A stretch of 37,375 nt of DNA from a bacterium (GTDB lineage Bacteria; UBP18; UBA7526). Location of the stretch: positions 1-37,375 of the forward strand of contig JAUWYL010000010.1 of NCBI GenBank assembly GCA_030615855.1, written 5' to 3'. A program made the translations under genes and the position numbers. Below the pieces are notes generated by a model that did not search any database, had not been told where the DNA came from, and saw nothing but the letters and a program-made list of their open reading frames with translations. Below, in pieces: positions 1,292-32,954 of the stretch (its first letter is position 1; the number at the start of each line of letters is the position of its first letter).

Positions 1292-3670
1292 TCACTTTCC
1301 CATTACTACTCTCACCTTGTGACTCTTTCCATCTCTGTGAGGTTTGATCAGATTTCCCTCTATTCTCTTTCCATCTACATAGATCTCTTTTACCCCATAC
1401 TCAATTCCCTTTGGATTCTCAATCTCGATCTGATAGATTGCTTCTCGGAAGGGTCTTCTTATCTTGCACTTCTTCCAGGAAGAAGGAAGATGGGGATCAA
1501 TCCTTATTCCCTCCACATGCTTTCTAACACCCAGCATCCATTCAGTAACGATCATATAGACCCAGCCTACGGTGCCAGTAAGCCAGGAGAAGGCCCCTTC
1601 CCCAAAGAGATAGGGATGGCTAGGTCCCACCAGATATTCACTGAATACATAGGGCTCCATTTTATAAAGTTCGTAATCCTTCTGTTTATTGGGCATAATC
1701 TTCTTCAGTGTCTGCCAAGCTTTATTGGAATATCCCAGCATAAGATAGGCTACGATAAGAAAGGTTGCTGCATGACAGAAGATAGCGCCATTCTCCTTGG
1801 TTCCTGGAGCAAACATAGTCGCCCGACCCAACGAAGGCTCATATTGGCTATAGGTAGGATAGAATAAAGCCGGGCCATGGTCACTATCCAGATATTTGTC
1901 TATTGACTCCAAGAGTAACCTTAACCTCTTCTTGGGAACAATATCTGAAAGGATAGCCCAGGACTGGGTATTTAAAAAGATCTTTCCCTCTTTATTCCTA
2001 TTCGAACCAAAGGCCTCGCCAGTATCTTTAAATCCCCTGAGATACCACTCCCCATCCCAGGCATTCTCATTGATTATCTTAGTCATCTCCTCTGCCCGAT
2101 CCTTCGACTTCTGGGACATCTTTAAATCCTCTGTAAGAGCCGCTAAACGGGAGGCAACCTTAAGGGAACCCACAAAAGCTTGGGCAAGCATCACACTCTC
2201 TCCCTTCCCCTTAATCCCGCAGGCATCCAAACCATCGTTCCAGTCTCCCCGGCCTATAAGGGGAAGGCCGTGTGCCCCCCGATGAGAATAAGTATAGTCC
2301 AATTCCCGATAGATATGCTCTATAACCGTTCCTTCTCCCTCTTTAGGACACCACTTATCCACTAAATAGGGGGCCTTCTCCCCTAAGACCCCGATATCCC
2401 CGGTCTCCCGAATGTACTCAGAAACGAGGTAGGCCAGCCAGATGGTCTGACCTTTCATGGGTGGAGCATCCCCTGGTCCCCAGAGGGAGTAATTTACAGC
2501 ATTCGTCCCATCAGCACGCACCAAAGAGGCTAATTTCAAAATAGTCTCGCGCACCGATTGCGGTTCAAAAGCCGCCAAACTCTCAGCATCCTGTACTACT
2601 CCCCGGTATCCTCTTCCCGGACCCCCACCATGATAGTAGGAGGGGCTACGATTCCAGAGGTTATTAATATATAACTGATAGGGAAGCCAAGTATTTACTA
2701 AGATGTTGAAGTCCTTATCTGGGGTCTCAACCTTTATCCTTGAAGTTTTTTCCTGCCAATCCTTCCTTATGGCATCCAATTCTTTCCTTACCTGAATGAT
2801 ATCCTGATATTTGTTTAATATCTCTTTGACCTTATCCTTGTTCTCTGCTTGTCCCAGAATGAAGATAAATTCTTTTTCCTGTAATCCATCCAATCCAAAG
2901 TTATGCTGCAATACCCCTACCGCATCCTCTCCTTCACAATTAGAGTTCCCTAAAGCCTCGTTCTTTAGTCCATCGGGATTCGAGATATCATTATACCTTC
3001 CGGTGAAGGCTGTCTTAAGACACTCGTAGCCATCCACTTTAAAATTGGAGCCAAAGAAGACCAGCCCCTCAAAAGGTCTAATATCCCCTTCCTGCCACTG
3101 GGCAGACTTCCGCCCTAAGATGGCTTTTGCCTCACCATCCCACCAGACCTTATTATAAAGAGTAGTAACATTATGGATGCGCAACTCTAAAAAATATTGG
3201 CCGATGAGCCATTCAATAAAGCCATAAAGATGGAATCTTCTCTTTCTTCTGGTATCATTCTTTATCCTCACCTTCCAGATCTCACAGGGCTCTTTCCGGG
3301 GAACGAAGTAGGTTATCTCTCCTGTCACCCCAAAGGCCTTAGTAGTAATGGTGGTATATCCTAAACCATGCCTTCCCTCATAGAAGTCCAGTTCCCTCCT
3401 CATGGGCTGCCAGTTTAAAGACCAGTACTGCCCGGTAACTAAATCCTTCAGATAGACATACCTTCCCGGCCGATCAGTCAAGAAATTACTTGGGCCCCAT
3501 CTCAAAATCCTGTTTATCCCGCAGTCCTTATAGAAACTATAGCCTCCTCCAGTATGGGAGACCAGGGCACAGTAATCCTCATTGGTCAGATAATTGATCC
3601 AGGGCCGAGGCGTCGCTGGATTGGTTATCACATACTCCTGATTCTTCTCATCAAAATGTCCGTATTCCAT
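1292..3670 (-). CDS. Glycoside hydrolase family 94 phosphorylase (chitobiose/cellobiose phosphorylase-like)
   Basis: 792 residues, the usual length for GH94 disaccharide phosphorylases, which split a beta-glycosidic bond with inorganic phosphate to give an alpha-sugar-1-phosphate in the cytoplasm. The start (FDEKNQEYVITNPATPRPWINYL, then GGGYSFYKD at 41-49 and TDRPGRYVYL at 65-74) closely matches the N-terminal beta-sandwich of N,N'-diacetylchitobiose phosphorylase as I remember it. GRGDWNDGLD at 473-482 holds the DWND motif with the catalytic acid, D479 by analogy. GEGAFSWLTGT near residue 700 is the other family hallmark. Substrate is unresolved, because the region around 345-361 (YYHGGGPGRGYRGVVQDAESL) differs from the chitobiose enzymes I recall. 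An AAGGGGG site lies upstream of the ATG. No signal peptide is seen. Confidence 0.9.
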   Translation of the reverse strand: MEYGHFDEKNQEYVITNPATPRPWINYLTNEDYCALVSHTGGGYSFYKDCGINRILRWGPSNFLTDRPGRYVYLKDLVTGQYWSLNWQPMRRELDFYEGRHGLGYTTITTKAFGVTGEITYFVPRKEPCEIWKVRIKNDTRRKRRFHLYGFIEWLIGQYFLELRIHNVTTLYNKVWWDGEAKAILGRKSAQWQEGDIRPFEGLVFFGSNFKVDGYECLKTAFTGRYNDISNPDGLKNEALGNSNCEGEDAVGVLQHNFGLDGLQEKEFIFILGQAENKDKVKEILNKYQDIIQVRKELDAIRKDWQEKTSRIKVETPDKDFNILVNTWLPYQLYINNLWNRSPSYYHGGGPGRGYRGVVQDAESLAAFEPQSVRETILKLASLVRADGTNAVNYSLWGPGDAPPMKGQTIWLAYLVSEYIRETGDIGVLGEKAPYLVDKWCPKEGEGTVIEHIYRELDYTYSHRGAHGLPLIGRGDWNDGLDACGIKGKGESVMLAQAFVGSLKVASRLAALTEDLKMSQKSKDRAEEMTKIINENAWDGEWYLRGFKDTGEAFGSNRNKEGKIFLNTQSWAILSDIVPKKRLRLLLESIDKYLDSDHGPALFYPTYSQYEPSLGRATMFAPGTKENGAIFCHAATFLIVAYLMLGYSNKAWQTLKKIMPNKQKDYELYKMEPYVFSEYLVGPSHPYLFGEGAFSWLTGTVGWVYMIVTEWMLGVRKHVEGIRIDPHLPSSWKKCKIRRPFREAIYQIEIENPKGIEYGVKEIYVDGKRIEGNLIKPHRDGKSHKVRVVMGK

Positions 3671-4139: not shown

Positions 4140-4820
4140 TTAATTAATTTTTTCGAATATCTCGGCTACAAGATCTAAAAGTATTATGTATAAGATTAAT
4201 CCCTTCAGTAATACCTTTAATAATTCTTTTCCTGAAGTAGCTTTGATATTAATTCTTGTTTCTTTCACCTCTCTTTTATAAAGTCGCATTAGAATACCAT
4301 CTTTGTCTAAAAGCGTAGGAAGAATTTTATGACTTAACTGGTGTCGGACTCGTTGTAACTTAACAAATGCTGGAGATTTCCTGATGTCATTCAATAAACT
4401 TACAAACTCATGGTTTCTATACTCTTTATGTAATCTAAGTTTATTTATACAGTTAGAAAGACTTATCTCTTTTCTTGTATCATCTAACATAAGATTTAAA
4501 TAGGTATTTAGGGTAAAACCTATTTTATTAAAGGCATCATACAGTCGTATTATACCGTTTTCTGCTTCAATAATAGCGATTTCTTCGTTCCTTGCGGATA
4601 AAATTTGCTCAATTATAATAACAATTTTTGCAGATTCAGAAACGTTTTCCCAATATAAAATAAAACTTTCGAAGTTATTAGCTTTACTCAACTTTTTAGC
4701 AATATTTGCACTATAAAAAATATCGCTTACTACTTTTGGTAGTTCTATGCCAAGTTTTTTAACGGTGCCATAAGCAGCAATTAAATCTTTCTGTATTTTG
4801 TCAGATGACATTTCATCCAT
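4140..4820 (-). CDS. All-helical hypothetical protein with a weak HEPN-like RxxxxH motif
   Basis: 226 residues from the chosen ATG. A GTG nine bases upstream also starts this frame, but AGGTG lies 6 bases before the ATG and overlaps the GTG, so I prefer the ATG. The sequence appears entirely helical, with RHQLSH at 159-164 giving an R-x4-H spacing like the active site of HEPN ribonuclease domains. A second candidate, RNH, lies at 135-137. The last 25 residues are hydrophobic (LLKVLLKGLILYIILLDLV) and could be a membrane or packing helix. Composition is AT-rich compared with moeA upstream. The HEPN link is inference from one short motif and could be chance. Confidence 0.55.
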   Translation of the reverse strand: MDEMSSDKIQKDLIAAYGTVKKLGIELPKVVSDIFYSANIAKKLSKANNFESFILYWENVSESAKIVIIIEQILSARNEEIAIIEAENGIIRLYDAFNKIGFTLNTYLNLMLDDTRKEISLSNCINKLRLHKEYRNHEFVSLLNDIRKSPAFVKLQRVRHQLSHKILPTLLDKDGILMRLYKREVKETRINIKATSGKELLKVLLKGLILYIILLDLVAEIFEKIN

Positions 4821-4922
4821 ATAGTACACCTGTTACAAATTCGGCATTTTATTGGAAATTAGGAATTAGAAACTTAACATGTATCTTGTCTCTTGGTTAT
4901 TGGTGATTGCTTATAATGAGTC

Positions 4923-6134
4923 TTAATCCCACAACTCCACTTCCACCATCTGGTCTTTCTCGATTCCCTCACTTAAACGCGGTATCCTTAATAGTCCATC
5001 AGCTTTTACTAAGGAGACGATATTCGCTGAACCCCTATGTAACGGGATAGCAATTAATTTCCCCTCTTTTTCTTCCAGTCTTATCCGAATATACTCCTCC
5101 CTTCCTGTAGAAGAGGTAACAGTTCTTGCTAATCGGACATTTACTACTTTTATCTTCTCTTTGGCATTCATCATGGCCAAGATAGTAGGCTCCACTATCT
5201 TCCTGAAGACGATCATGACGCTCACTGGATTTCCCGGCAGCCCAAAGATAATTTTTTCTTTTATTTTTGCAATAATGGTAGGCTTTCCAGGCTTTATGGC
5301 TACCCCTTGAGTTAGGACCTTTCCTTGGGTTAAAGAATTCATTACCTTTAAGGTAAGATCATAAGCACCAACTGAACTTCCTCCAGAGATGAGAACCATG
5401 TCTGCCTTAGACAATGCCTTTTCTATCTTCTCTCTTAGAATTTTAGGATCGTCTTTAATAATCCCAAAGGGAATGGGTTCTCCTCCACATTTTTCGATTT
5501 GAGCAGACAGGGAATAGGTATTCATATTCCTAATCTGTCCAGATTCTGGTTTCCTTTTCGGCTCAACCAACTCGTCCCCAGTAGGAATAATGGCTACCTT
5601 GGGCCTTTTGAATATCTTTATCTCTGTAATCCCCAATCCGCTCAAGGCACCGATATCCTGTGCCCTTATCCTGTGCCCTTTTGCTAACAGGACCTCGCCC
5701 TTTCGAATATCCTCTCCTCTCTTAGCAACGTTCTCTCCGGGGGTTAAAGCCTTCCTTATTTTTACTCTTTTTCCCTCAACTTCTATATATTCCAACATCT
5801 CAACGCTATCTCCCCCTCTGGGCATTATGGCCCCAGTATCAATCTTTATCGCCTCGCCCTTCTCGACCTCTTTCTTGGAAATCTCGCCGATCTTTATTTC
5901 ACCAATTAAAGATAAAGAAATAGGATTCTCTTCAGAAGCCCCAAAGGTATCTTTTGCTCTTACCGCATAGCCATCCATCATAGCTTTATTGAATGGTGGC
6001 AGGTCCTCGGGAGAGATGACATCAGTAGCCACGAACCTATCCAGACTATCAGCAACCTCTATGGTCTCATTCCCCATAGGTTTTATTTTCCCAACTATCT
6101 TCCTTGCCTCACTTACTGTCTTCAGTTCTAACAT
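4923..6134 (-). CDS. moeA: Molybdopterin molybdenumtransferase MoeA
   Basis: 403 residues, the standard length. MoeA inserts molybdate or tungstate into adenylylated molybdopterin to finish the pterin cofactor in the cytoplasm. Visible hallmarks are PPFNKAMMDGYAV at 46-58, the GGSSVGAYD loop at 251-259 with the family GGxSxGxxD pattern, and FGLPGNPVS in the C-terminal half. It is the last gene of a tupA-tupB-tupC-moeA run, about 75 bases after tupC. The metal handled is therefore probably tungsten, although MoeA itself does not reveal this. GAGGTTGGG immediately precedes the ATG. Confidence 0.95.
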   Translation of the reverse strand: MLELKTVSEARKIVGKIKPMGNETIEVADSLDRFVATDVISPEDLPPFNKAMMDGYAVRAKDTFGASEENPISLSLIGEIKIGEISKKEVEKGEAIKIDTGAIMPRGGDSVEMLEYIEVEGKRVKIRKALTPGENVAKRGEDIRKGEVLLAKGHRIRAQDIGALSGLGITEIKIFKRPKVAIIPTGDELVEPKRKPESGQIRNMNTYSLSAQIEKCGGEPIPFGIIKDDPKILREKIEKALSKADMVLISGGSSVGAYDLTLKVMNSLTQGKVLTQGVAIKPGKPTIIAKIKEKIIFGLPGNPVSVMIVFRKIVEPTILAMMNAKEKIKVVNVRLARTVTSSTGREEYIRIRLEEKEGKLIAIPLHRGSANIVSLVKADGLLRIPRLSEGIEKDQMVEVELWD

Positions 6135-6209
6135 CCCAACCTCGTTCTACTTAGAATAGTGAGTCTTTATCTGCGATAATCTGCATCTATATCTGCGGTT
6201 ATCTGCGTC
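6135..6209. repeat. ATCTGCG-word spacer
   Basis: The moeA-tupC gap holds four degenerate copies of TATCTGCG or ATCTGCA on the plus strand (about 6168-6208). The same word fills gaps at 8655-8698, 9548-9602, 9656-9720 and 32905-32955. Confidence 0.6.
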
Positions 6210-6941
6210 TCAAAAGATCATCTTTCCTTCAATGAATCTCAAGATGCGCTTGTCTTTGGGACTGGTAAAGATTTCTTGAGCATTTCTTGATTCAATGATC
6301 CGGCCCTTAAATAGGAAGCTGGCCTCATGGGCTAGGCGCCTTGCCTGGAACATATTATGGGTAGCAATAACGATGGTAGTCTTGAATTCTCTATTAATGT
6401 ATTTTATCAATTCCTCAATTATGGCTACATTCCTGGGATCGAGATCACTCGTGGGTTCATCGAGAAAGAGGATCTCTGGTTCCAAGACCATGGCCCTTGC
6501 TATAGCCACCCTCTGCTTCTCGCCTCCAGAGAGATCCCTTGCCCTTTTATGCTCATAGCCTTTAAGGCCTATTACTTCTAAGGCCTTCTTTACTTTCTCA
6601 AGGATCGAGCTCCTATTCTCTTTTCTCACCTTCAATCCATAGGCCACGTTCTCATAGACAGAGGTATTAAAAAGGGCGGGCTTCTGGAAGACCAGAGTCA
6701 TCCTGCGATGTAGGTTCAGGCGGTTATTCTCTCTTAGTGCTTTTCCATCGAAGTGGATCTCTCCAGAGGTTGGTTCTTCCAGGAGATTTAAGAGGCGCAG
6801 AAGGACGCTTTTACCCACACCGCTTGGGCCTATTATAGCATGTATTCTTCCCCTTTCCAATTGAAGATTTATCTCTTTTAGAACGGCCTCTCCATTATAT
6901 TCCTTGGATAGATTGTGGGTTTGTATGGTATAGTTTTTCAT
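6210..6941 (-). CDS. tupC: Tungstate ABC transporter ATP-binding protein
   Basis: 243 residues. This is the ATPase subunit that powers oxyanion import from the cytoplasmic face. The Walker A motif GPSGVGKS is at 38-45, the Q-loop in LVFQKPALF near 83-91, the ABC signature LSGGEKQR at 137-144, Walker B EILFLDEP at 156-163, and the switch histidine in IATHN at about 195. It follows the permease gene. The gap between them is a long inverted repeat whose left arm supplies the ribosome site AGGTGCGGG directly against the ATG, so translation of this gene may depend on that structure. Substrate is taken from the TupA-like binding protein of the operon. Confidence 0.92.
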   Translation of the reverse strand: MKNYTIQTHNLSKEYNGEAVLKEINLQLERGRIHAIIGPSGVGKSVLLRLLNLLEEPTSGEIHFDGKALRENNRLNLHRRMTLVFQKPALFNTSVYENVAYGLKVRKENRSSILEKVKKALEVIGLKGYEHKRARDLSGGEKQRVAIARAMVLEPEILFLDEPTSDLDPRNVAIIEELIKYINREFKTTIVIATHNMFQARRLAHEASFLFKGRIIESRNAQEIFTSPKDKRILRFIEGKMIF

Positions 6942-7079: not shown

Positions 7080-7772
7080 TCATTCTCTAATCCTCTGTAA
7101 ATAATAAAGTCCGGTGTTAATTAGAAAAGCAACGGCCAAAAGTATAATCCCTAAGGCCAAAGCGAGCTCAAACCTTCCTTTCCCGGTCTCCAAGGCGATG
7201 GCCGTAGACATCACCCGGGTAGTTCCCTTTATATTCCCTCCCACGATCATGGCTGCTCCGATCTCAGTGACCACCCTTCCAAACCCAGCGATTAAAGCTG
7301 CTAAAATGGCCACTCTCGCCTCTCTTAAGACAGTGAGCGTCGTCTGGACCTTTGTTGCCCCAAGGGAGATGGCACTCTTAGTAATGGCAGGGTCCACGCC
7401 TTTTACTGCTACCAAGGAAAGAGCGCCGATAATGGGGGTAGCTAAGATAGTCTGGGCAGTGATCATGGCACCTGGGGTATAGAGAAGTCCTAACATGCCC
7501 AAAGGGCCCCTGTGGGATAGGAAGAGATAGACGAAGAGCCCCACCACTACTGTGGGAAGAGCGAAGCAGGTATTGAGTAGGGTAGTTATCACTCCTCTTC
7601 CCGGAAACTTGTGGAGTCCGACCAATGCTCCCAGGGGGATACCAAGGCATGAGGCCAGAAGAACTGCAATTCCTGAGATGCGCAGGGATAGGAATATAAC
7701 GGTATAAGTCCCTCTATCAAAACTGAAGAGTAAGCGGAAGGCCTCTTTAAGTCCCGCCAATATGTAATCCAT
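7080..7772 (-). CDS. tupB: Tungstate ABC transporter permease
   Basis: 230 residues with about five membrane helices. It forms the transmembrane channel of the tungstate importer. The stretch AISLGATKVQTTLTVLREA, within about 134-172, is the EAA-type coupling loop that docks on the ATPase. PTVVVGLFVYLFLSHRGPLG near 73-92 is typical of TupB/WtpB permeases. The gene starts one base after the tupA stop, so the two are translationally linked. Its stop codon abuts the inverted repeat before tupC. Confidence 0.92.
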   Translation of the reverse strand: MDYILAGLKEAFRLLFSFDRGTYTVIFLSLRISGIAVLLASCLGIPLGALVGLHKFPGRGVITTLLNTCFALPTVVVGLFVYLFLSHRGPLGMLGLLYTPGAMITAQTILATPIIGALSLVAVKGVDPAITKSAISLGATKVQTTLTVLREARVAILAALIAGFGRVVTEIGAAMIVGGNIKGTTRVMSTAIALETGKGRFELALALGIILLAVAFLINTGLYYLQRIRE

Positions 7773-7773
7773 A

Positions 7774-8604
7774 CTATTCCCCTATGGGATGGAAGAGTGG
7801 CTCTCCGAACTTTTCCTTGCCAAACTCCCTTATTATCTTTTGTCCTTTAACTGAAATTAGAAAGTTGATAAATTCTATACCCCTTCTATACTTAATGTGA
7901 CCATGCTTTTTAGGATTAACCAATATTATGCTATATGGATTATGTAATAGTCGATCTTTTTCATATAAAGTAACTAGGACTAACCTATCTTTACAGGATA
8001 AATGGGTAGCACGATCTGTTAGACAATAGGCCTGCTTCTGACTTGCGATAACTAAAGTGGCTCCCATCCCCTGTCCCGTTTCTTGATACCATTCACCCTC
8101 TGGGATTAAACCTGCTCTTTCCCAGAGTCCCCTCTCCCTCTTATGCGTTCCAGAATCATCTCCCCGGGAGATGAAGGACGCTTTCTTGTGAGCAATGGCA
8201 GATAAAGCAGGTATTACTCCAGTCATCCCCTTAATCTTCGCTGGATCATCCTCTGGTCCTGCAATGACAAAGTCGTTATACATGATGCTCCTTCTATTTA
8301 CCCCATACCCTTCCCTTACAAATCTTTCCTCTGCCTCCGGATCGTGGACCAGAATGAGATCGCAATCCCCATTCTTTGCCAATCGGATGGCCTTCCCCGT
8401 TCCGCAGGCGATGACGTCCACCTTTACTTTTGCTTCTTTCTCAAAAGAAGGGATTAAGGCATCGAGGAGACCAGAGTTCTCTACACTTGTGGTAGTAGCC
8501 AGAACGAGATGAGGGATTTCTCTTCTGCACCCCAGGGTAAAAACCATAACGCAGATTACCGCAGATAACAAAACGCAGATGACCATATTCCTCCCCATTT
8601 TCAT
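7774..8604 (-). CDS. tupA: Tungstate-binding lipoprotein TupA
   Basis: 276 residues. The N-terminus is a lipoprotein signal (MKMGRN, a hydrophobic stretch, then TLGC with the lipidated Cys at 26), so the protein should be anchored outside the cytoplasmic membrane. ATTTSVENSGLLDALIP at 36-52, CGTGKA at 67-72, DLILVHDP at 82-89 and YNDFVIAGP at 109-117 are the signature segments of TupA-family tungstate receptors; the TTTS and GTG segments line the oxyanion site. It is the first gene of tupABC-moeA, behind a promoter and a structured leader. Selectivity for tungstate over molybdate is inferred from the family. An in-frame ATG six codons in is also preceded by GGGGAGG, but the first ATG gives the better signal peptide. 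Confidence 0.93.
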   Translation of the reverse strand: MKMGRNMVICVLLSAVICVMVFTLGCRREIPHLVLATTTSVENSGLLDALIPSFEKEAKVKVDVIACGTGKAIRLAKNGDCDLILVHDPEAEERFVREGYGVNRRSIMYNDFVIAGPEDDPAKIKGMTGVIPALSAIAHKKASFISRGDDSGTHKRERGLWERAGLIPEGEWYQETGQGMGATLVIASQKQAYCLTDRATHLSCKDRLVLVTLYEKDRLLHNPYSIILVNPKKHGHIKYRRGIEFINFLISVKGQKIIREFGKEKFGEPLFHPIGE

Positions 8605-8698: not shown

Positions 8699-8735
8699 AA
8701 AAAAACCAGCTCCCGTGGGTTTAAAGAAGCTGGTT
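8699..8735 (-). terminator. Rho-independent terminator in the tupA leader
   Basis: On the minus strand an 8-base stem AACCAGCT/AGCTGGTT (8735-8728 with 8711-8704) is followed by a run of Ts (8705-8699). It lies about 95 bases before the tupA start and is not at the end of a gene. The CACGGGAG in its loop and 3' arm (8717-8710) can pair instead with CTCCCGTG at 8760-8753, as expected for attenuation. Confidence 0.75.
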
Positions 8736-8845
8736 TAAATCTCCTTTCCAAACACGGGAGGTATGGCCGTTTCCCGCCATGCCCTATCGCCCCGATATCA
8801 TATCCCTTAATTGGGATTTAGAACATTGGGGTCGGAACAATATTC
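8736..8845 (-). promoter_or_regulatory. Structured leader of tupABC-moeA, candidate Moco/Tuco-type riboswitch
   Basis: The minus-strand RNA can form three helices. The outer helix pairs CCCC (8831-8828) with GGGG (8793-8790), extended by a CG pair across one bulged base. It encloses the hairpin ATCCC-AATTAA-GGGAT (8817-8802). Next comes ATGGC (8780-8776) with GCCAT (8767-8763), capped by a loop holding GAAA, a possible GNRA tetraloop. A CTCCCGTG arm then competes with the terminator. Position ahead of tungstate uptake and moeA genes makes a molybdenum- or tungsten-cofactor riboswitch the best guess. I cannot align it to the Moco family model, so the ligand is inference; the terminator switch is directly visible. 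Confidence 0.6.
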
Positions 8846-8858
8846 AGTTTTTAAATCA

Positions 8859-8887
8859 AGTCTAACTTAATTTTTCGGATTTGTCAA
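8859..8887 (-). promoter_or_regulatory. Sigma-70-type promoter of the tup operon
   Basis: On the minus strand TTGACA (8887-8882, a perfect -35) is followed by exactly 17 bases and TAGACT (8864-8859, four of six matches to TATAAT). Transcription would start near 8852, just ahead of the structured leader. The -35 begins four bases after the stop codon of the HAD gene. Confidence 0.65.
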
Positions 8888-9472: not shown

Positions 9473-9710
9473 ATCCTTCCCCTCCTTTGCAACCGCAAAA
9501 GCGCAAAATTATAAACAAAAACGCAAAATTAATTTATAGGATTTTTAGTTGCTGTTGATAATCTGCGATCATCTGCGTCTTAATCTGCGCCTTAATCTGC
9601 GCCTTGCTTTTAGTTTTTAGTCTCCGAACTCCGAACTATTAACTCCGAACTAACTTATCTGTGCTCATCTGCGGTCTTTTTCTGTGGCCATCTGTGGTTC
9701 TCATCTGCGG
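9473..9710. repeat. Spacer of iterated words upstream of the HAD gene
   Basis: The gap is built from several word families on the plus strand: GCGCAAAATTATAAAC with a second CGCAAAATTAA; four ATCTGCG-type units at 9548-9602; CCGAACT units near 9623-9652; and a further run of ATCTGTG/ATCTGCGG units at 9656-9720. No gene is visible. Confidence 0.6.
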
Positions 9711-9884
9711 TCATCTGCGTCTACCGAAGCAGCCTAACTGACAGTCAGTAATCTTAATCCCCAACTCATTCGCTGCCTTACCAATCTCTATAGGCTTCAC
9801 CTTCAACCTTTTAGCCAGAGCCAAGGCTTCAACACAGGGAAGTCTCTTGTTCTGTGCTACTTTTAAAACTTCATCTTTAATCAT
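9711..9884 (-). CDS. 57-residue protein with conserved-looking CQLGCFG end, linked to MobB
   Basis: The frame runs ATG to TGA: MIKDEVLKVAQNKRLPCVEAL, then a helical AxELGIKI segment and DCQLGCFGRRR at the end. GAGGG sits about 8 bases before the ATG. Three cysteines (LPC, CQLGC) and short helices suggest a winged-helix-like fold with possible metal or thiol chemistry. From memory, small proteins ending in CQLGCFG occur beside Mo/W cofactor genes in anaerobes and archaea; I cannot confirm this here. It lies directly downstream of the mobB-like gene. The last three arginine codons and the stop fall inside an ATCTGCG-word repeat, so the repeat has set the gene's end. Confidence 0.75.
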   Translation of the reverse strand: MIKDEVLKVAQNKRLPCVEALALAKRLKVKPIEIGKAANELGIKITDCQLGCFGRRR

Positions 9885-9957: not shown

Positions 9958-10419
9958 TTACCTGATCCTCTTTTTAACGAACTTTACTGCCTTATCAAAT
10001 TCATTAGATGAGATTATCAAATCTACTTTCTTTAGTACTCTCTTGGCACTCTCCTTTATCCTCTTTCCCTCTGCCTTAATCATTACAGCAACGTCTGGTT
10101 TAATATAATCTAAGACGCTCGTTCCTTCAATGATTACTCCCTTGCATCCCGAGACCATTCCCAGGGCAACCTTAAGCGCCCAGCCTAAGTCTTTTCTGGG
10201 AGAACTAACCAAGACCACCTTCTCTGCTCCGGCTTCCTTTAGTAAAGCAGTATCCTTTCCCGGAGCCTCGATCGCCTCCTCTTTAGAAGTGACGGAGATA
10301 TTCTCTTTGGAAACCGTGGTCTTTATTGCTCCGAAGTCCTTCAGACTTTTAAGAATCTTACAGGCCAAAGCGGTCTTCCCCACCCCCTTATGCGCCCCTG
10401 ATATCGTAATAATCTTCAC
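9958..10419 (-). CDS. mobB: MobB-like P-loop GTPase of molybdopterin cofactor synthesis
   Basis: 153 residues from a GTG at 10419. The frame opens ten codons earlier, but those lie in a repeat, and AGGTGCGGG sits directly before the GTG. Residues 8-16 are the P-loop GAHKGVGKT in the position usual for MobB. Later strands include VVLVSSPRKD and GVIIEGTS. MobB binds GTP and assists attachment of a guanine nucleotide to the cofactor. The usual pattern of longer MobB proteins is shortened here and the sequence is divergent, so a related P-loop role in Mo/W metabolism remains possible. Neighbours (the CQLGCFG protein, and the tup-moeA operon 1.4 kb on) support the assignment. Confidence 0.72.
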   Translation of the reverse strand: MKIITISGAHKGVGKTALACKILKSLKDFGAIKTTVSKENISVTSKEEAIEAPGKDTALLKEAGAEKVVLVSSPRKDLGWALKVALGMVSGCKGVIIEGTSVLDYIKPDVAVMIKAEGKRIKESAKRVLKKVDLIISSNEFDKAVKFVKKRIR

Positions 10420-10497
10420 CCCGCACCTTCTACCATCTTCACCCCGCACCCTCTCCTCTCCAAATCCTAACCGCGGACAAGGAAGGGGCGGGGTTCA
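10417..10497. repeat. Second copy of the tupB-tupC gap repeat, upstream of mobB
   Basis: 10438-10497 matches 6960-7019 at about 50 of 60 positions without gaps. It is preceded by another TTCACCCCGCACC unit at 10416-10428. Its plus-strand ends CACCCCGC and GCGGGGTT are imperfect inverted repeats. In both places the unit provides the ribosome site of a Mo/W gene (GGTGCGGG then the start codon). Confidence 0.7.
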
Positions 10498-20450: not shown

Positions 20451-21071
20451 TTAGTGCGCTCTTATGATCTCCTTAATCCTCATGAGTCTGGTCAAATCCG
20501 CCCTCTCCATTTCGGAAAGTTTCATAGTAATATACTTTATGGTCTCTTCTAAATTGGGGATGAAGATGTACTCTAAGGCGTTCACCCTTCTTCTTGTCCT
20601 TTCTATCTCAGCAGCCAAAAGTTCCATTGTTTTCTCTAAAGAGGCTAATTTTACTAAGGAAGGTAATAGGTCAGAATAGGCTTTTAAAGCAACATCCAAC
20701 TCCGATGAGGTAGTTACCAGACCATAGTTATGAATATCTTCTTCTTTCTTAATCTCATATTCTGGAACTTTAACACCTACAATATATCTGTAAGAAACCT
20801 CAAGAGTTATTCTCTCTCCGGGCCACATTAAGGACTCCTCGACAAATTCTAGAGGCATAAGCATCCGAGCAATAACGAGACTCTGGAAGGCTTTCTTCAG
20901 GCCTTCTTCTACTTCTTTCCTCAAGTTTATTACTTCTTTCACCAGAGGCATGAACTGCTTTATCAATTCATCCTGCTTGTCTTTAAGAAGTCTGTGGCCT
21001 CTTTGAGCAAGGAGGATCCTCTTCTTCAGTCTCAATAACTCCATTCGGGTAGGACTAACACTCAAACGCAT
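20451..21071 (-). CDS. atpD: V-type ATPase subunit D (central stalk)
   Basis: 206 residues, typical length. Subunit D is the long coiled-coil rotor shaft inside the A3B3 head. SPTRMELLRLKKRILLAQRGHRLLKDKQDELI at 6-37 is the family signature, and RTRRRVNALEYIFIPNLEETIKYI near 164-187 is the matching C-terminal helix. It is the last gene of the ATPase cluster. Confidence 0.95.
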   Translation of the reverse strand: MRLSVSPTRMELLRLKKRILLAQRGHRLLKDKQDELIKQFMPLVKEVINLRKEVEEGLKKAFQSLVIARMLMPLEFVEESLMWPGERITLEVSYRYIVGVKVPEYEIKKEEDIHNYGLVTTSSELDVALKAYSDLLPSLVKLASLEKTMELLAAEIERTRRRVNALEYIFIPNLEETIKYITMKLSEMERADLTRLMRIKEIIRAH

Positions 21072-21145
21072 CCTTCACTCCATTCAGATAGTTTATAGTA
21101 ACCAGCGAACAGTAACCAGTCTTTTTACTGTAATCTGTAAACTGG
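21072..21145. repeat. GTAACCAG-word spacer
   Basis: The B-D gap contains repeated AGTAACCAG and ACTGGTTAC words, self-complementary to each other (plus-strand GTAACCAGTC near 21111-21120 and ACTGGTTACTGGTTAC near 21142-21157). The words extend into the 3' end of the subunit B gene. Confidence 0.6.
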
Positions 21146-22525
21146 TTACTGGTTACTCTGTTTGAGGTATTTCTTTATGTATTCGTCTCTTATTCTCTTC
21201 AAGTCACTAGTGGGAATCATGGTGAGGAGTTTCCAGCCGAGGTCTAAGGTCTCTTCGATGCTTCTATTCTCGTCCCCGCCCTGAGCAACAAACTCCTCCT
21301 CAAATTTATCGCTGAGCTTTGCATATATCTTATCCAATTCTGTCAAGGCTGCTTCACCAAGAATGATGGCTAATTCCTTGGCCTCCTTCCCTCGGGCATA
21401 ACAGGCAAATAGCTGATTGGTAACATCCCCATGGTCCTCCCGGGTCTTATCCTTTCCAACCCCCTTTTCCTTCAATCTCGATAATGAAGGAAGGACATCT
21501 ATGGGAGGATAGACCCCTCTTCTATGTAGTGGTCGAGAGAGAATAATCTGTCCCTCTGTAATATATCCTGTTAAATCCGGAATGGGATGGGTCTTGTCAT
21601 CCTCGGGCATGGTGAGTATGGGGATCTGGGTGATAGAGCCCTTCTTTCCCTTTATTCTTCCTGCCCTTTCATATATGGTGGATAAATCGGTATACATATA
21701 TCCGGGATAGCCCCTTCTTCCCGGGACCTCCTTACGGGCAGCCGATATCTCCCTTAGAGCATTGGCATAATTGGTCATATCGGTTAATATCACTAAGACA
21801 TGCATATCCTTTTCAAAGGCAAGATACTCAGCGCAAGTCAAGGCCAACCGGGGAGTAGCAATTCTCTCAATGGCCGGGTCATCTGCTAAGTTGACGAATA
21901 GGACCGCCCTCTCAATGGCTCCGGTCCTTCTAAAGTCAGTGATGAAGTAGTTTGCCTCTTCGAAGGTAATACCCATGGCAGCAAAGACCACAGCGAATTT
22001 CTCCTCTTTCCCCAAGACCCTTGCTTGCCTGGCGATCTGGGCAGCAATCTGGGGATGGGGAAGTCCGGCACCAGAGAAGATGGGAAGTTTCTGTCCCCTC
22101 ACTAAGGTATTCATGCCATCGATGGCAGAGATCCCGGTCTGGATGAACTCTGTAGGATAGTCCCTTGCTGTGGGATTGATGGGGTTACCATTAATATCAA
22201 TCCTCTTCTCCGGTATAATCTTGGGGCCACCATCTATGGGCCTTCCCAATCCATCGAATATTCTTCCCAATAAGTCCATCGAAACACCGAGTTCAATTCC
22301 CTTACCTAAAAACCTCACCCTTGACTGATAAACATTGAGTCCCGTTGTCCCCTCAAATAGTTGAACCAAGGCCTTATCTGCGGTGATCTCTAATACCTTC
22401 CCTCTCCTCACCTCTTTGGTAGCCAGTTCAATCTCGGCAATCTCACCATACTTAATCCCGCTTGTCTCCTCTACCAAGATTAAGGGACCGGCAATATGGG
22501 ATATAGTCAGATATTCTTTTACCAC
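21146..22525 (-). CDS. atpB: V-type ATPase subunit B (non-catalytic)
   Basis: 459 residues. Subunit B alternates with A in the cytoplasmic head. [49 protein letters not shown] and [11 protein letters not shown] are standard B-subunit segments, and there is no complete Walker A, as expected for the non-catalytic subunit. The last codons (KQSNQ, stop TAA) are written by the AGTAACCAGTAA spacer repeat, the same tail ending as CysK. Confidence 0.96.
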
Positions 22526-22612
22526 TATTTACTCCTTATTTGTTTGGCCAGTTGACCAGTTTGCCAGTTTGCCAGTTAGACAAGTTAACAGGCTAACCGA
22601 CTAACCGGCTAA
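22526..22612. repeat. GCCAGTTT/CTAACCG-word spacer
   Basis: The A-B gap contains four GCCAGTT-type units (22540-22577) followed by three CTAACCG-type units (22590-22612). These are word families different from the flanking gaps. Confidence 0.6.
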
Positions 22613-24415
22613 CTATTTCGTTAATCCTTCTATTTCTCTTTTTATTTCTTTCTCTATGCTATCGAACTCTCTTATATTCTTCTCCTCTATATACTTCATC
22701 CTATCAATCTTCTCCTTAATCTTCAAAGTAAGTAACTTCTCCAAGAACACTCCCTTCTCCAGGGCATGCTCAGAAGAATGGTGGAGCTCTAAGATCACTT
22801 TTAGCATGCGATACTGCTTTGCCAATGGAGCATAGACATCTATCTCATGGAAAGCATCCTGCATAAGGTAGTCCTCCCGGATGGACTTGGCGGTCTCCAC
22901 GACCAGCTGTTCTCTTGGAGAGAGGGCTTCCTTTCCCACCAATCTTACAATCTCCTGTAAGGAGTCCTCTTCCTGCAATATGGCCATAGCGATATTCCTT
23001 AACTTCATCCAATCGTTAGCAATCTCCTTTCCCAGATATGCCTCTACATTATCAAGGTATAAGGAGTAACTATTGAGCCAGTTGATTGCCGGGAAGTGCC
23101 TCATATAGGCCAACCTATCCTCTAAGGCCCAGAAGACCTTCACCGTCCTCAAGGTTGCCTGAACCACAGGATCTGATAGGTCCCCTCCCGGGGGAGAGAC
23201 GGCCCCCATCACAGTAAGCGTCCCTTCCCGGTTCTTCGTTCCCTGACAGACGACCCTTCCCGCCCTCTCATAGAACTCAGCCACCCTGGTCCCCAGATAG
23301 GCGGGATAGCCCTCTTCACCAGGCATCTCTTCCAATCTTCCTGAAATCTCCCTCAGGGCCTCAGCCCATCTCGAGGTGGAGTCAGCCATAACCGCCACAT
23401 TATATCCCATATCCCGATAGTACTCGGCAATGGTGATCCCGGTATAGATTGAGGCCTCCCTGGCCGCAACGGGCATATTGGAGGTATTGGCGATCATGAT
23501 TGTTCTTTCAATTAAGGGTCTTCCTGTCTTGGGATCCTTCAGTTTGGGGAATTCTAATAGGACATCGGTCATCTCATTCCCTCTCTCACCACATCCAATA
23601 TAGACGATGATCTGGGCATCTGCCCAGGCGGCGATGGCATGAAGGATGACCGTCTTTCCGCTCCCAAATGGCCCAGGGATACAGGCCGTTCCTCCTTTTG
23701 CCACTGGGAAGAAGGTGTCAATCACCCTCTGACCAGTAACCAGGGGGATCTCTGGAGGAAGCTTCTTCTGAACCATTCTTTCTCGTCTCACTGGCCACTT
23801 CTGCAACATCCTGATCTCTTTTATTCCACCTGCCCGCCGAAGCCTCGGCGCAGGCGGGGAGGAGGTCCTCACCTTAGCAATAGTTTGAGTAACAGTGAAC
23901 CTTCCTTTCTTAATTACCCTTATCTCTCCTTCTATTCCCGAAGGAACTAAGACCTTATGAATAACAAGGGGGGTCTCCTGGACAGTGCCCAGGATATCCC
24001 CTGTCCTTACCTCATCTCCCTCCTTTACTAAAGGAATAAAGTCCCACTTCTTCTTCCTATTTACTGCAGGTAAAGTAATCCCCCGGGTAATGTAACTACC
24101 TGTTTTATCTCTAATAATATCCAGCGGCCTCTGGATGCCATCGTATATCCCGCTCATCAGTCCCGGGCCCAGTTCAACGCTCAAGGGTGCCAGGGTAGTC
24201 TCTACCGGCTCACCTGGCCCCAAGCCACTTGTCTCTTCATAGACCTGGATGCTCGCCCTATCCTCTTTAATCTCGATGATCTCACCAATGAGACCCATCC
24301 TGCCCACTCTTACCATATCATACATCTTGGCCTTCACCATCCCCTCGGCAACTACCAAGGGGCCAGAGACCTTAATTATTCTCGCTTTGGTTGGAGAGGT
24401 TGTAACTCTTTCCAT
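22613..24415 (-). CDS. atpA: V-type ATPase subunit A (catalytic) with a repeat-encoded insert
   Basis: 600 residues. Catalytic subunit of the rotary ATPase; hydrolyses or makes ATP in the cytoplasmic head. The P-loop GPFGSGKT is at 248-255, the non-homologous A-type region at about 110-190, and GERGNEMTDVL with PVAAREASIYTGIT follow. Residues 185-197 (SSPPAPRLRRAGG) interrupt the segment just before EIRMLQKWPVRR, which in homologues I remember is continuous. The insert is encoded by a GC-rich palindrome (23829-23860) of the kind seen in intergenic repeats. The start overlaps the previous gene by 40 bases. Confidence 0.95.
   Translation of the reverse strand: MERVTTSPTKARIIKVSGPLVVAEGMVKAKMYDMVRVGRMGLIGEIIEIKEDRASIQVYEETSGLGPGEPVETTLAPLSVELGPGLMSGIYDGIQRPLDIIRDKTGSYITRGITLPAVNRKKKWDFIPLVKEGDEVRTGDILGTVQETPLVIHKVLVPSGIEGEIRVIKKGRFTVTQTIAKVRTSSPPAPRLRRAGGIKEIRMLQKWPVRRERMVQKKLPPEIPLVTGQRVIDTFFPVAKGGTACIPGPFGSGKTVILHAIAAWADAQIIVYIGCGERGNEMTDVLLEFPKLKDPKTGRPLIERTIMIANTSNMPVAAREASIYTGITIAEYYRDMGYNVAVMADSTSRWAEALREISGRLEEMPGEEGYPAYLGTRVAEFYERAGRVVCQGTKNREGTLTVMGAVSPPGGDLSDPVVQATLRTVKVFWALEDRLAYMRHFPAINWLNSYSLYLDNVEAYLGKEIANDWMKLRNIAMAILQEEDSLQEIVRLVGKEALSPREQLVVETAKSIREDYLMQDAFHEIDVYAPLAKQYRMLKVILELHHSSEHALEKGVFLEKLLTLKIKEKIDRMKYIEEKNIREFDSIEKEIKREIEGLTK
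23829..23860. repeat. Palindromic repeat inserted in the subunit A gene
   Basis: The plus strand carries CCCGCC (23833-23838) and GGCGGG (23853-23858) around a nested GCCGAAGCCTCGGC. It is the most GC-rich stretch of the gene, keeps the reading frame, and encodes Pro/Arg/Ala/Gly. The general design (arms of CCGCC/GGCGG) is shared with the hairpins at 26234-26262 and 29958-29987. Confidence 0.75.
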
Positions 24416-24894
24416 TTTTTCTTCTCCATCACTGGTTTAGGTTTCTCTATTTCTTTTTTAAAGGGTTTTTCAATCTCAGGTTCGGGTGGTTTGGGAACCT
24501 TTTCCCCTATGCCCAAAAATTCCATTATCTTATCAATCTTCCCTATTGTCTCTTCTGTGTCCATTTGAAGGGAAGCTATTGTTTCCTGAATAACAATGCT
24601 TCCCTTCCTCAGGTGCCTGAGTTCCTCAAGGTTATTCCTTATCTTTATAGAAAGGGCTTTGGTTTCTTCCCTCAAGTCTTTCAATAAGTCCTTTAATTCC
24701 TCTTTTTTGAAGGGGGGTTCCTCTGGTTCTTTCATCTCTACTTTCTGAGAAGATAGAGAAATGACCTTTTGCTCTAAAGTAGTAATCTTCTTCTCCATGA
24801 GGCCTACCCCCTGGCTTATCCTTATACTAAGATAGAGAAGGAAGAAGAGAATAAGAAGTAAAAAGGAATAGGCGAGAATATTAGCCTTCTTCAT
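24376..24894 (-). CDS. Membrane-anchored coiled-coil protein embedded in the V-ATPase operon, unknown function
   Basis: 172 residues. One membrane helix (about 7-26, LAYSFLLLILFFLLYLSI), then a long charged coiled coil (about 33-140), then a Pro/Glu/Lys-rich tail. It starts with a four-base overlap (ATGA) to subunit F and runs 40 bases into subunit A, so it is translated as part of the operon. It is not a standard V-type subunit in sequence: E and H/G, the usual peripheral stalks, are already present. An accessory tether or stalk factor is inference. Confidence 0.75.
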   Translation of the reverse strand: MKKANILAYSFLLLILFFLLYLSIRISQGVGLMEKKITTLEQKVISLSSQKVEMKEPEEPPFKKEELKDLLKDLREETKALSIKIRNNLEELRHLRKGSIVIQETIASLQMDTEETIGKIDKIMEFLGIGEKVPKPPEPEIEKPFKKEIEKPKPVMEKKKWKELQPLQPKRE

Positions 24895-25208
24895 TTCTCT
24901 TCCGCCTTTAGGATATCTGTGCCCAATGCCTTCTCAGATATTTTCTTTAATCTCTCTCTTGCCAGACCTAAAGCCTCACCTTTTGCAGGAATGACAACAA
25001 TGTTTGAGAATTTGCTAAGATCTGTTATCGATTCCTTAATCTGAGACGATAGGCTCTCTGTGATGTAGATGGTAGCATAATCCCTATTTTGGGCGAGACT
25101 CTTTAATCTCTCTTCTGCTCCCTTGGAATCGGTTACAGGATAGATCTCGATCCCTAAGGGCTTGAAGCCTAAAATAGTATCCTTCTCACCAATTATGGCA
25201 ATCTTCAC
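24891..25208 (-). CDS. atpF: V-type ATPase subunit F
   Basis: 105 residues from a GTG (GGGGTGAAGATT context). Subunit F is a Rossmann-like globule on the central stalk with D. MKIAIIGEKDTILGFKPLGIEIYPV and YATIYITESLSSQI match the family. It overlaps the next gene by four bases. Confidence 0.92.
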   Translation of the reverse strand: MKIAIIGEKDTILGFKPLGIEIYPVTDSKGAEERLKSLAQNRDYATIYITESLSSQIKESITDLSKFSNIVVIPAKGEALGLARERLKKISEKALGTDILKAEEK

Positions 25209-25224
25209 CCCACATCTTCCTCCG

Positions 25225-26187
25225 TTAGATAAAGGTCTCTCTCATCCTTTCCCTGATCATCTGGGCAGGAATCTCGCTTATCTTCCCCGTCAACACACTC
25301 CTTAAGAGTTTTATCTCATTCTCTTTAGCAATTAGGTAGGCGATGAGCACTTCCAGGCCAGCAGTAACAAGTTTTGTCTTCTTTATATACTCCAAGAGAA
25401 AGTTATCACAGGAAAGCTCCAATCCTTTCAAGCCTTCTTTCTCATATCCCATAATGACCTTAGCATAAGGAGTGAAGGAGAGCTTTCTCAAGAAGGCGTT
25501 CTCTTCCTTCTCATAGAATTCCAGGAAGAGTTTCTTGGTTAAACATCCTCCCTCAAGAAAGACTTTTGAAAAGAATACTTTATCTCTTTTTAAAGCTCGA
25601 CAGCGGAAGAATGTCTTTATATTAATGAGGTCGATCTCCCTACGAAAAAGGTTTATTACGAATTTATCTTCAGATTCTCTTGCCTTTCCCAGACAGAGTT
25701 TATAGTACTCCTTATCTAAGATTATATCAATGTCCTGGGGATTCTTGCTCTTTTCAAAAGCCTCTGTTGTCTTTTTCTGGGTCTCTAAAAGTTCTTCTGC
25801 CTTTTCTATCTCTTTAGGATCGACGGTTCCCAGATTAACGAATGGTAATTTTTCCAAAGGAAGGGGTTTCTCTTTAAACTTATTCTTTAGAAAGACTTTC
25901 AGGTTATGAAAATCGTAACGCATCCTGAATAGATCGGTCAATTCCCTGTTTAAAGACCACTTATCAATGAAGAAATAGAGTCTCCTTAATTCATCGTGAA
26001 GTAATTCTTCAAAGTTGTTAATATCCTTTAGTTGTGAAACGTAGGAGCCATAGTCTGTCTCCTCAAGCTCTGAGAAGCTGGCTTTGACCGAGGTAGCAGC
26101 GACCATCCTCTCCATTTTTAATTTATCGAGAAGCCGTACCTCAAGGGCTCTTACTCTTCCTGTGATATAGGCGTATCTTGTGTCCAT
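25225..26187 (-). CDS. atpC: V-type ATPase subunit C (d-type, rotor socket)
   Basis: 320 residues, all helical, normal length. Subunit C (d) connects the central stalk to the membrane ring. YAYITGRVRALEVRLLDKLKMERMV at 5-29 and the LRSVLTGKISEIPAQMIRERMRETFI end (roughly NEIKLLRSVLTGK) are family features. It lies between E and F. Confidence 0.92.
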   Translation of the reverse strand: MDTRYAYITGRVRALEVRLLDKLKMERMVAATSVKASFSELEETDYGSYVSQLKDINNFEELLHDELRRLYFFIDKWSLNRELTDLFRMRYDFHNLKVFLKNKFKEKPLPLEKLPFVNLGTVDPKEIEKAEELLETQKKTTEAFEKSKNPQDIDIILDKEYYKLCLGKARESEDKFVINLFRREIDLINIKTFFRCRALKRDKVFFSKVFLEGGCLTKKLFLEFYEKEENAFLRKLSFTPYAKVIMGYEKEGLKGLELSCDNFLLEYIKKTKLVTAGLEVLIAYLIAKENEIKLLRSVLTGKISEIPAQMIRERMRETFI

Positions 26188-26406
26188 CCTACTTCCTCAG
26201 TGATCAATGATTCGAAGTTTACAGTAACCAGCGTCCGCCAGAGGCGGATCAGCCTTTGGCTGAAACAGTTTACAGTAAAAAGAAGGAAAGATAGATAAAG
26301 ACAATGTGTGATATGTGATGTGCGATGAAAAAATCTCAAATCCCACATCACATTACTCATATCATCATTCACCGACCACCGTCCACTGTTAACTGGTTAC
26401 TGGTTA
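26188..26406. repeat. Spacer with twin hairpin and GTTACT words
   Basis: The 219-base gap between E and C holds AGTTTACAGTAACC words at both sides, GTGTGATATGTGATGTGCGATG, and a twin hairpin at 26234-26262: TCCGCC-AGA-GGCGGA then CAGCC-TTT-GGCTG. A 73-residue frame through it overlaps the subunit C start and is not credible. Confidence 0.6.
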
Positions 26407-26982
26407 CTACTTAAAGAGTATTCTCACCAAGCGGGATTCCAGTTTCTCGCGCTGGGAGCGAAAGAGGGATTCAAAAGAATTATTTATCTCTATCTTCTCT
26501 CTTTTCAGGATAAATCCTCCACTAATTTCCCTATCTTCTTTGGAGATTCTCAGGTTTTTATTAATGCTTTTAATGAAAGAAGGGGTGATTCTCTTTTTAT
26601 CTTCCTTGGAAAGGATAATCGCGCCCGACCCACTCTTTGCTACTTTGAGAAGCATCTTCTTAATCAGTTCCTGATATGGTCTTTTACCAAGCTTTTTAAG
26701 TTTCGCTAAGGCCTTCCCATAGGCCTCCTCAATGAGTCGTTCCTTCTCCTCCAGGACCGTTCTCCTGGCCTCTAAGTTGGCCATGGTAAGGATATGGTCT
26801 CTTCTCCTTTGGGCTTCGAAAGAGGCTGCCCTTAGGATCTCCTCTTTAATGGAGGCTGCTTTCTCCTGGGCCTCTTTTGAGATCTGGCTTACTTTTTCCT
26901 GAGCCTCTCGCTCAAGCGTCTTTATCTCGAGCGCAGACTCTTCATCAATGCGCTCAATAATCTTCTCTAAAGGCATTCTCAA
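26407..26982 (-). CDS. atpE: V-type ATPase subunit E (peripheral stalk)
   Basis: 191 residues. The N-terminal half is a charged coiled coil (EKIIERIDEESALEIKTLEREAQEKVSQISKEAQEKA), and the C-terminal half a mixed fold with GSGAIILSKED and ISGGFILKREKIEINNSFESLF, the ending typical of subunit E. It clamps the stator to the head and partners with the H/G coil at 30000-30311. Confidence 0.93.
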   Translation of the reverse strand: MRMPLEKIIERIDEESALEIKTLEREAQEKVSQISKEAQEKAASIKEEILRAASFEAQRRRDHILTMANLEARRTVLEEKERLIEEAYGKALAKLKKLGKRPYQELIKKMLLKVAKSGSGAIILSKEDKKRITPSFIKSINKNLRISKEDREISGGFILKREKIEINNSFESLFRSQREKLESRLVRILFK

Positions 26983-27092
26983 CCCCTAAGATAGTTAATA
27001 ACAGTTAACAGCGGTTAATAGTGGTTAATATCAGTTGCTCTTTTTAAATGCAACCGATTTTAACCGTTGTTAACAATTTTAACCGATATTAA
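26983..27092. repeat. GTTAATA/GTTAACA-word spacer
   Basis: The K-E gap contains units such as AGTTAACAGCGGTTAATAGTGG (iterated GGTTAAT) on the plus strand and AACCGATTTTAACCGTTGTTAAC in the opposite sense, so the two halves can base pair. Confidence 0.55.
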
Positions 27093-27563
<471 letters not shown>

Positions 27564-27872
27564 TTAATTCCACCTCCTTTTGAACACAGATTCACACAGA
27601 TTTAATACAGATGGCCACAGATCACAGATATTTGCGCAACTTGGAGAATAGACGCCAGGCAAGCTGGCTAGATTCTTCGCAAGGCTCAGAATACAGAACA
27701 TCAGAGTATCAGAATGAGAATTCAGAAATCAGATTTCAGATTCAATCTGACTTTCTGATATCTGGCCTTCTTTATCTGATATTCTGGTTATCTGATGCTC
27801 TTTTCATTTTGCATTTTGCATTTTGCATGTTTCATTGTTAATTTTGCATTTTTCATTGTTCAATGTTAATTG
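27564..27872. repeat. Spacer built from three word families
   Basis: No gene in 309 bases. On the plus strand the stretch holds CACAGAT units (27585-27630), then ATCAGA/TCTGATAT units with inverted halves (27700-27800), then tandem TTTTGCA and TTTCATTGTTAA units (27806-27870). A 76-residue plus-strand frame in the repeats is not credible. Confidence 0.6.
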
Positions 27873-32900: not shown

Positions 32901-32954
32901 CGTAAATCTCTTTATCTGCGTTCATCTGCGTTTTGATCTGCGGCCATCTGCGTT
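32901..32954. repeat. ATCTGCG-word spacer
   Basis: Four TCTGCG-type units lie in 54 bases (plus-strand TATCTGCGTTCATCTGCG, GATCTGCGGCCATCTGCG). Same family as the gaps near moeA and the 57-residue gene. Confidence 0.65.

Follow-up and report, generated by a model that had tools for sequence, protein, structure and literature searches.

The window analysed here (the whole stretch of DNA, 37,375 nucleotides) carries on its minus strand the operon tupABC-moeA. This gene order had been proposed in the first-pass annotation, and matches to Pfam or NCBIfam families for all four products bear it out. The first gene, tupA (7774-8604), encodes a tungstate-binding lipoprotein that matches PF12849 and, at 9.7e-65, NF041772 (TupA); the latter, the only NCBIfam family listed for this protein, was matched with 218.6 bits, under its 400-bit equivalog cut-off. 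The permease gene tupB (7080-7772) matches NF038017 above the cut-off and NF041773 (TupB), the best transporter-specific NCBIfam family for the second protein, at 1.2e-59 and below the cut-off. The product of tupC (6210-6941) was assigned as an ABC ATPase from its match to PF00005 and its position in the operon, and moeA (4923-6134), for metal insertion into molybdopterin, shows MoeA_N, MoCF_biosynth and MoeA_C, all above cut-off. On the same strand we found the predicted sigma-70-type promoter (8859-8887), with TTGACA (8887-8882) separated by 17 nucleotides from TAGACT (8864-8859) and 10 of 12 positions agreeing with the consensus. Chance alone would provide one promoter of this quality in the region; a TTGACA-16/17-TATA(C/T)T counterpart lies at the same place in three relatives. 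Transcription would be expected to start near 8852, and an intrinsic terminator (8699-8735, minus strand) is followed after approximately 95 nucleotides by tupA and then by tupB, tupC and moeA. The site of interest, between the promoter and tupA, is accordingly placed as the 5' leader of genes for molybdenum/tungsten transport and cofactor synthesis.

Within this leader the covariance model RF01055 (Moco/Tuco riboswitch) matches 8849-8724 on the minus strand with 65.8 bits against a gathering score of 36, i.e. close to twice the threshold (E = 7.6e-14 for the whole window), and the alignment runs end to end over model positions 1-135. It covers the candidate helices of the first-pass annotation and upholds the proposal of a molybdenum/tungsten-cofactor riboswitch. 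The aptamer (8724-8849, minus strand) comprises P1, P2, a GNRA-capped P4 and P5; the P3 columns are empty in the Rfam alignment, and just a few nucleotides (CGAUA) lead from P2 to the conserved GGG of P4. We conclude that the tupABC-moeA leader is a P3-less member of the known family RF01055 from an obscure lineage, and an ordinary one, no new RNA class. The helices do look divergent to an unaided reader, and a divergent or new class had been suggested on that account, but a new riboswitch class or an unrelated leader RNA is so improbable as to need little discussion, given that the model aligns over its full length as the standard P3-less subtype and that RF01055 was the only Rfam family above threshold at the site (the runner-up scored 15.3 bits, with a gathering threshold of 49.5). 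Matches of 14-15 bits to anti-hemB and Betaproteobacteria_toxic_sRNA arise from the hairpin and U-run and were rejected.

The leader shares with the Moco RNA motif of Regulski et al. 2008 (PMC2408646) the P1, P2, P4 and P5 helices, the conserved CCUCCCGU...UUGGAAAGG core, the full-length match and a context of metal-transport and cofactor-synthesis genes. It differs from the E. coli moaA RNA in having no P3 and in ending in an intrinsic terminator; the ribosome-binding site of the E. coli RNA was described as lying in P1 (PMC2408646), and a 2025 RNA-seq analysis reports termination at the E. coli moaA RNA too (PMC12121620). With the P3-less 'Tuco' subtype of PMC2408646 the leader has in common the missing P3, the tungstate transporter genes and a tungsten-using organism; what differs is the host, which belongs to a sparsely sampled candidate phylum (UBP18-type) and whose genome gave no PF00384 match.

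The aptamer is also supported by comparison within the phylum. Five leaders were aligned, and since one of them (G002b) is identical to ours over aptamer and terminator they amount to four independent versions. In these, 90.4% of the cells in aptamer helices are paired and five pairs have changed on both sides; the covariation score of 0.304 compares with 0.182 +/- 0.026 in shuffled alignments, was reached by none of 500 shuffles, and fell to at most 0.144 when the partners were slid. Covarying helices ahead of tup/moe genes, a prediction of the first-pass annotation, are thus present. A seeming second riboswitch copy in G002 (L009 26-151 and L017 1501-1595) was rejected as a single locus broken by the assembler, because the two hits share exactly 141 nucleotides at contig ends and the public contig name contains 'k141'. 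Our host genome has a single RF01055 match, the tupABC-moeA leader itself.

Downstream of the aptamer lies an expression platform made up of a terminator and an alternative pairing, and here too the initial description, a terminator whose loop and arm can switch partners, holds. The terminator consists of AACCAGCT (8735-8728) and AGCTGGTT (8711-8704) followed by a T-run to 8699, with a folding energy of -15.0 kcal/mol; as RNA, AACCAGCU pairs with AGCUGGUU ahead of the U-run, and both arms and the U-run are invariant in the five aligned leaders. The antiterminator would use as its 5' arm CUCCCGUG (8753-8760, minus strand), which lies in the conserved aptamer core at the end of P4 and in P5 and extends to UUU at 8752-8750, and as its 3' arm CACGGGAG (8710-8717, minus strand), which lies in the terminator loop and the first two nucleotides of the terminator's 3' arm and extends to AAA at 8722-8720. 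In the RNA, CTCCCGTG (8760-8753) can pair with CACGGGAG (8717-8710), and three A-U pairs follow beyond a 2-nucleotide bulge. The two helices cross and should therefore exclude each other.

By itself the 8-nucleotide complement is weak evidence for an antiterminator, as a perfect one arose in 328 of 10,000 dinucleotide-shuffled platforms (3.3%). What makes the pairing credible is that it is conserved, with matched variation in relatives. The element CCACGGGAGCUGGUUUUUUU is kept in all five leaders, the insert in G005 notwithstanding, whereas other parts of the terminator loop vary; past the bulge the leaders have UUU/AAA, CUU/AAG or wobble variants, and 54 of 55 antiterminator cells are paired, with one pair appearing as U-A, U-G and C-G. 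Furthermore, minimum-energy folding of all five leaders gave the antiterminator for RNAs ending at CACGGGAG and the terminator for RNAs reaching the U-run (for our leader and G005 the folded stretch starts inside the promoter). For full-length RNA the gap between the two states is 0.6 kcal/mol in G002b, which is identical to our leader over the 141 nucleotides folded, and 0.2 kcal/mol in G001. In G005 (L003/L020) about 80 extra bases separate an intact aptamer from an intact terminator, and this insertion constitutes a natural test of the distance that can be tolerated between the two halves.

It could be argued that the aptamer is real and the terminator constitutive, or controlled through P1 only, and that the match of CUCCCGUG to CACGGGAG is a coincidence of invariant sequences. 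Consistent with this idea, the complement is seen in 3.3% of shuffles, and there is little covariation inside the phylum, where the antiterminator hardly varies and its score showed no excess over shuffles (293 of 500). With double-sided change confined to a single pair, the phylum gives the antiterminator no statistical support. In addition, L099 (Caloramator) appears to oppose its terminator with another element, GGAAAGGAG. Against coincidence stand the retention of CCACGGGAGCUGGUU beside a varying loop, even with approximately 80 nucleotides inserted in G005, the folding of partial transcripts of all five leaders into the antiterminator, and the fact that in other phyla terminator loops match their own aptamers. 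On balance we regard this alternative as decidedly unlikely.

The last of these points comes from 12 terminator-type RF01055 RNAs, one standing for this phylum and 11 from other genomes (L010 and L016 share a genome, as do L100 and L110), in which each aptamer's CCUCCCG...GGAAAGGAG segment was paired with every terminator hairpin. Summed over all 12, the pairing energy of true partners was -225.8 kcal/mol, compared with -205.7 +/- 7.6 when partners were permuted, and 1,082 of 200,000 permutations did as well, in what was an exploratory test, the hairpins having been picked by eye after the first examples had been seen. The core/loop pairs include CCCCCCG/CGGGGGG (L015), CUCCCGAC/GUCGGGGG (L106) and GAUUGG/CCAAUC (L103); four of the 12 RNAs (L010, L099, L104 and L110) did not prefer their own partner. 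L104 and L106, from Synergistaceae/Synergistales, resemble our leader in having a terminator after the aptamer core with a loop that complements core CUCCCG, but their loop and stem sequences are different and L106 has changed on both sides. In the accessible portions of the earlier papers terminators are mentioned and a loop-to-core pairing is not.

With regard to the ligand, the gene content of the host points to tungsten. In the genome (1,375,042 bases in 45 contigs, 93.6% complete), the tungstoenzyme family AOR (PF01314, AFOR_C) is matched six times, in some cases at contig ends, and there is a MoaA match. At that completeness, the genome yielded zero matches to PF00384 (bis-PGD oxidoreductases), PF02738 (xanthine dehydrogenase family), PF00174 (sulfite oxidase family) and ModA. 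Among six genomes of the phylum, AFOR_C is found in all six, RF01055 in five and PF00384 in one. The natural reading, for incomplete genomes and with PF00384, PF02738 and PF00174 as the molybdoenzyme families searched, is a tungsten-only cofactor economy. Tungsten-cofactor sensing was proposed for the P3-less type by Regulski et al. 2008, who found no P3 in 58 of 176 Moco RNAs and tungsten-cofactor genes in 17 of 19 organisms with P3-less RNAs (PMC2408646). Later reviews name the tungsten cofactor as a ligand and rest on that study (PMC9971707, PMC10043782). The rule linking P3 to the ligand is correlative, as in E. coli the Moco RNA without P3 lost its regulation instead of changing in specificity (PMC2408646).

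We therefore weighed a scenario with the same riboswitch and the same switch in which the ligand is the molybdenum cofactor, or either metal form. RF01055 was defined on the Moco-sensing E. coli RNA, and the metal preference of P3-less RNAs is based on correlation (PMC2408646). Nevertheless, our aptamer has no P3, the transporter is of the TupA type, and in the genome AOR-family genes are present while the tested molybdoenzyme families and ModA gave no match; we consider this scenario unlikely. The tungsten cofactor is the likely ligand because of the AOR matches and the lack of any to the three molybdoenzyme families or ModA.

We favor, and hold to be very probable, the reading that the leader acts as an OFF riboswitch of the P3-less Moco/Tuco type, working by transcription termination and most likely sensing the tungsten cofactor. 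Its family membership, the absence of P3, the operon, the terminator, the alternative pairing with its conservation and the tungstoenzyme-type gene content were all computed directly. The scheme that follows is one in which we infer the identity of the ligand, the direction of regulation and the use of the pairing in the cell. When the cofactor is scarce, nascent CUCCCGUG(UUU) of the aptamer's 3' core would pair with (AAA)CCCACGGGAG once this is made, and since the resulting antiterminator crosses the terminator hairpin, polymerase would read into the tungstate transporter genes and moeA (ON). When the cofactor is bound, the CUCCCG core would be held in P4/P5/P1, leaving CACGGGAG free, so that the AACCAGCU/AGCUGGUU terminator could form and the operon would be OFF. 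The net effect would be feedback control of tungstate uptake and MoeA, in keeping with the way Moco represses the moa operon of E. coli (PMC2408646). To a broader proposal, that this is a natural riboswitch specific to the tungsten cofactor, in a lineage perhaps making no molybdenum form, and that the CUCCCG-complementary terminator loop recurs across phyla, we would give about even chances.

Since 2008 the case for tungsten-cofactor sensing by P3-less Moco RNAs has been correlation-based, and this leader offers a convenient test case, with six tungstoenzyme-family matches in its genome, none to the tested molybdoenzyme families and a compact terminator readout. The loop-to-core pairing leads to specific predictions, open to test by mutation, about switching in terminator-type members. 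Other arrangements were seen among the RF01055 RNAs collected. In L044 (1011-1144) a Moco RNA with an apparent P3 stem (AAAGC/GCUUU) lies upstream of a gene for a probable molybdate/tungstate-binding protein, and farther downstream the same locus has a TupA-like sequence. In L002 (1501-1618) and L105 the Moco RNAs have neither P3 nor a strong terminator, and each lies directly upstream of an AOR-like tungstoenzyme gene and near its likely ribosome-binding site.

The window has further features. A MobB-like protein (9958-10449, minus strand; PF03205, 34.8 bits) is encoded upstream of the promoter as a separate unit, and a HEPN_Cthe2314-like protein (4140-4829, minus strand) just 3' of moeA; the minus strand also encodes a glycoside hydrolase family 94 protein, of the phosphorylase family (1292-3670), and a gene cluster for an archaeal/vacuolar-type ATP synthase (20451-29807). 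Short ATCTGCG / CGCAGATTA repeats form clusters at 6169-6207, 8556-8580, 9561-9713, 27585-27623 and 32914-32946 that are mostly intergenic. One cluster falls in the part of tupA that encodes the signal peptide; the N-terminus of this TupA is unlike that of relative G001, as though the signal peptide had absorbed the intergenic repeat.
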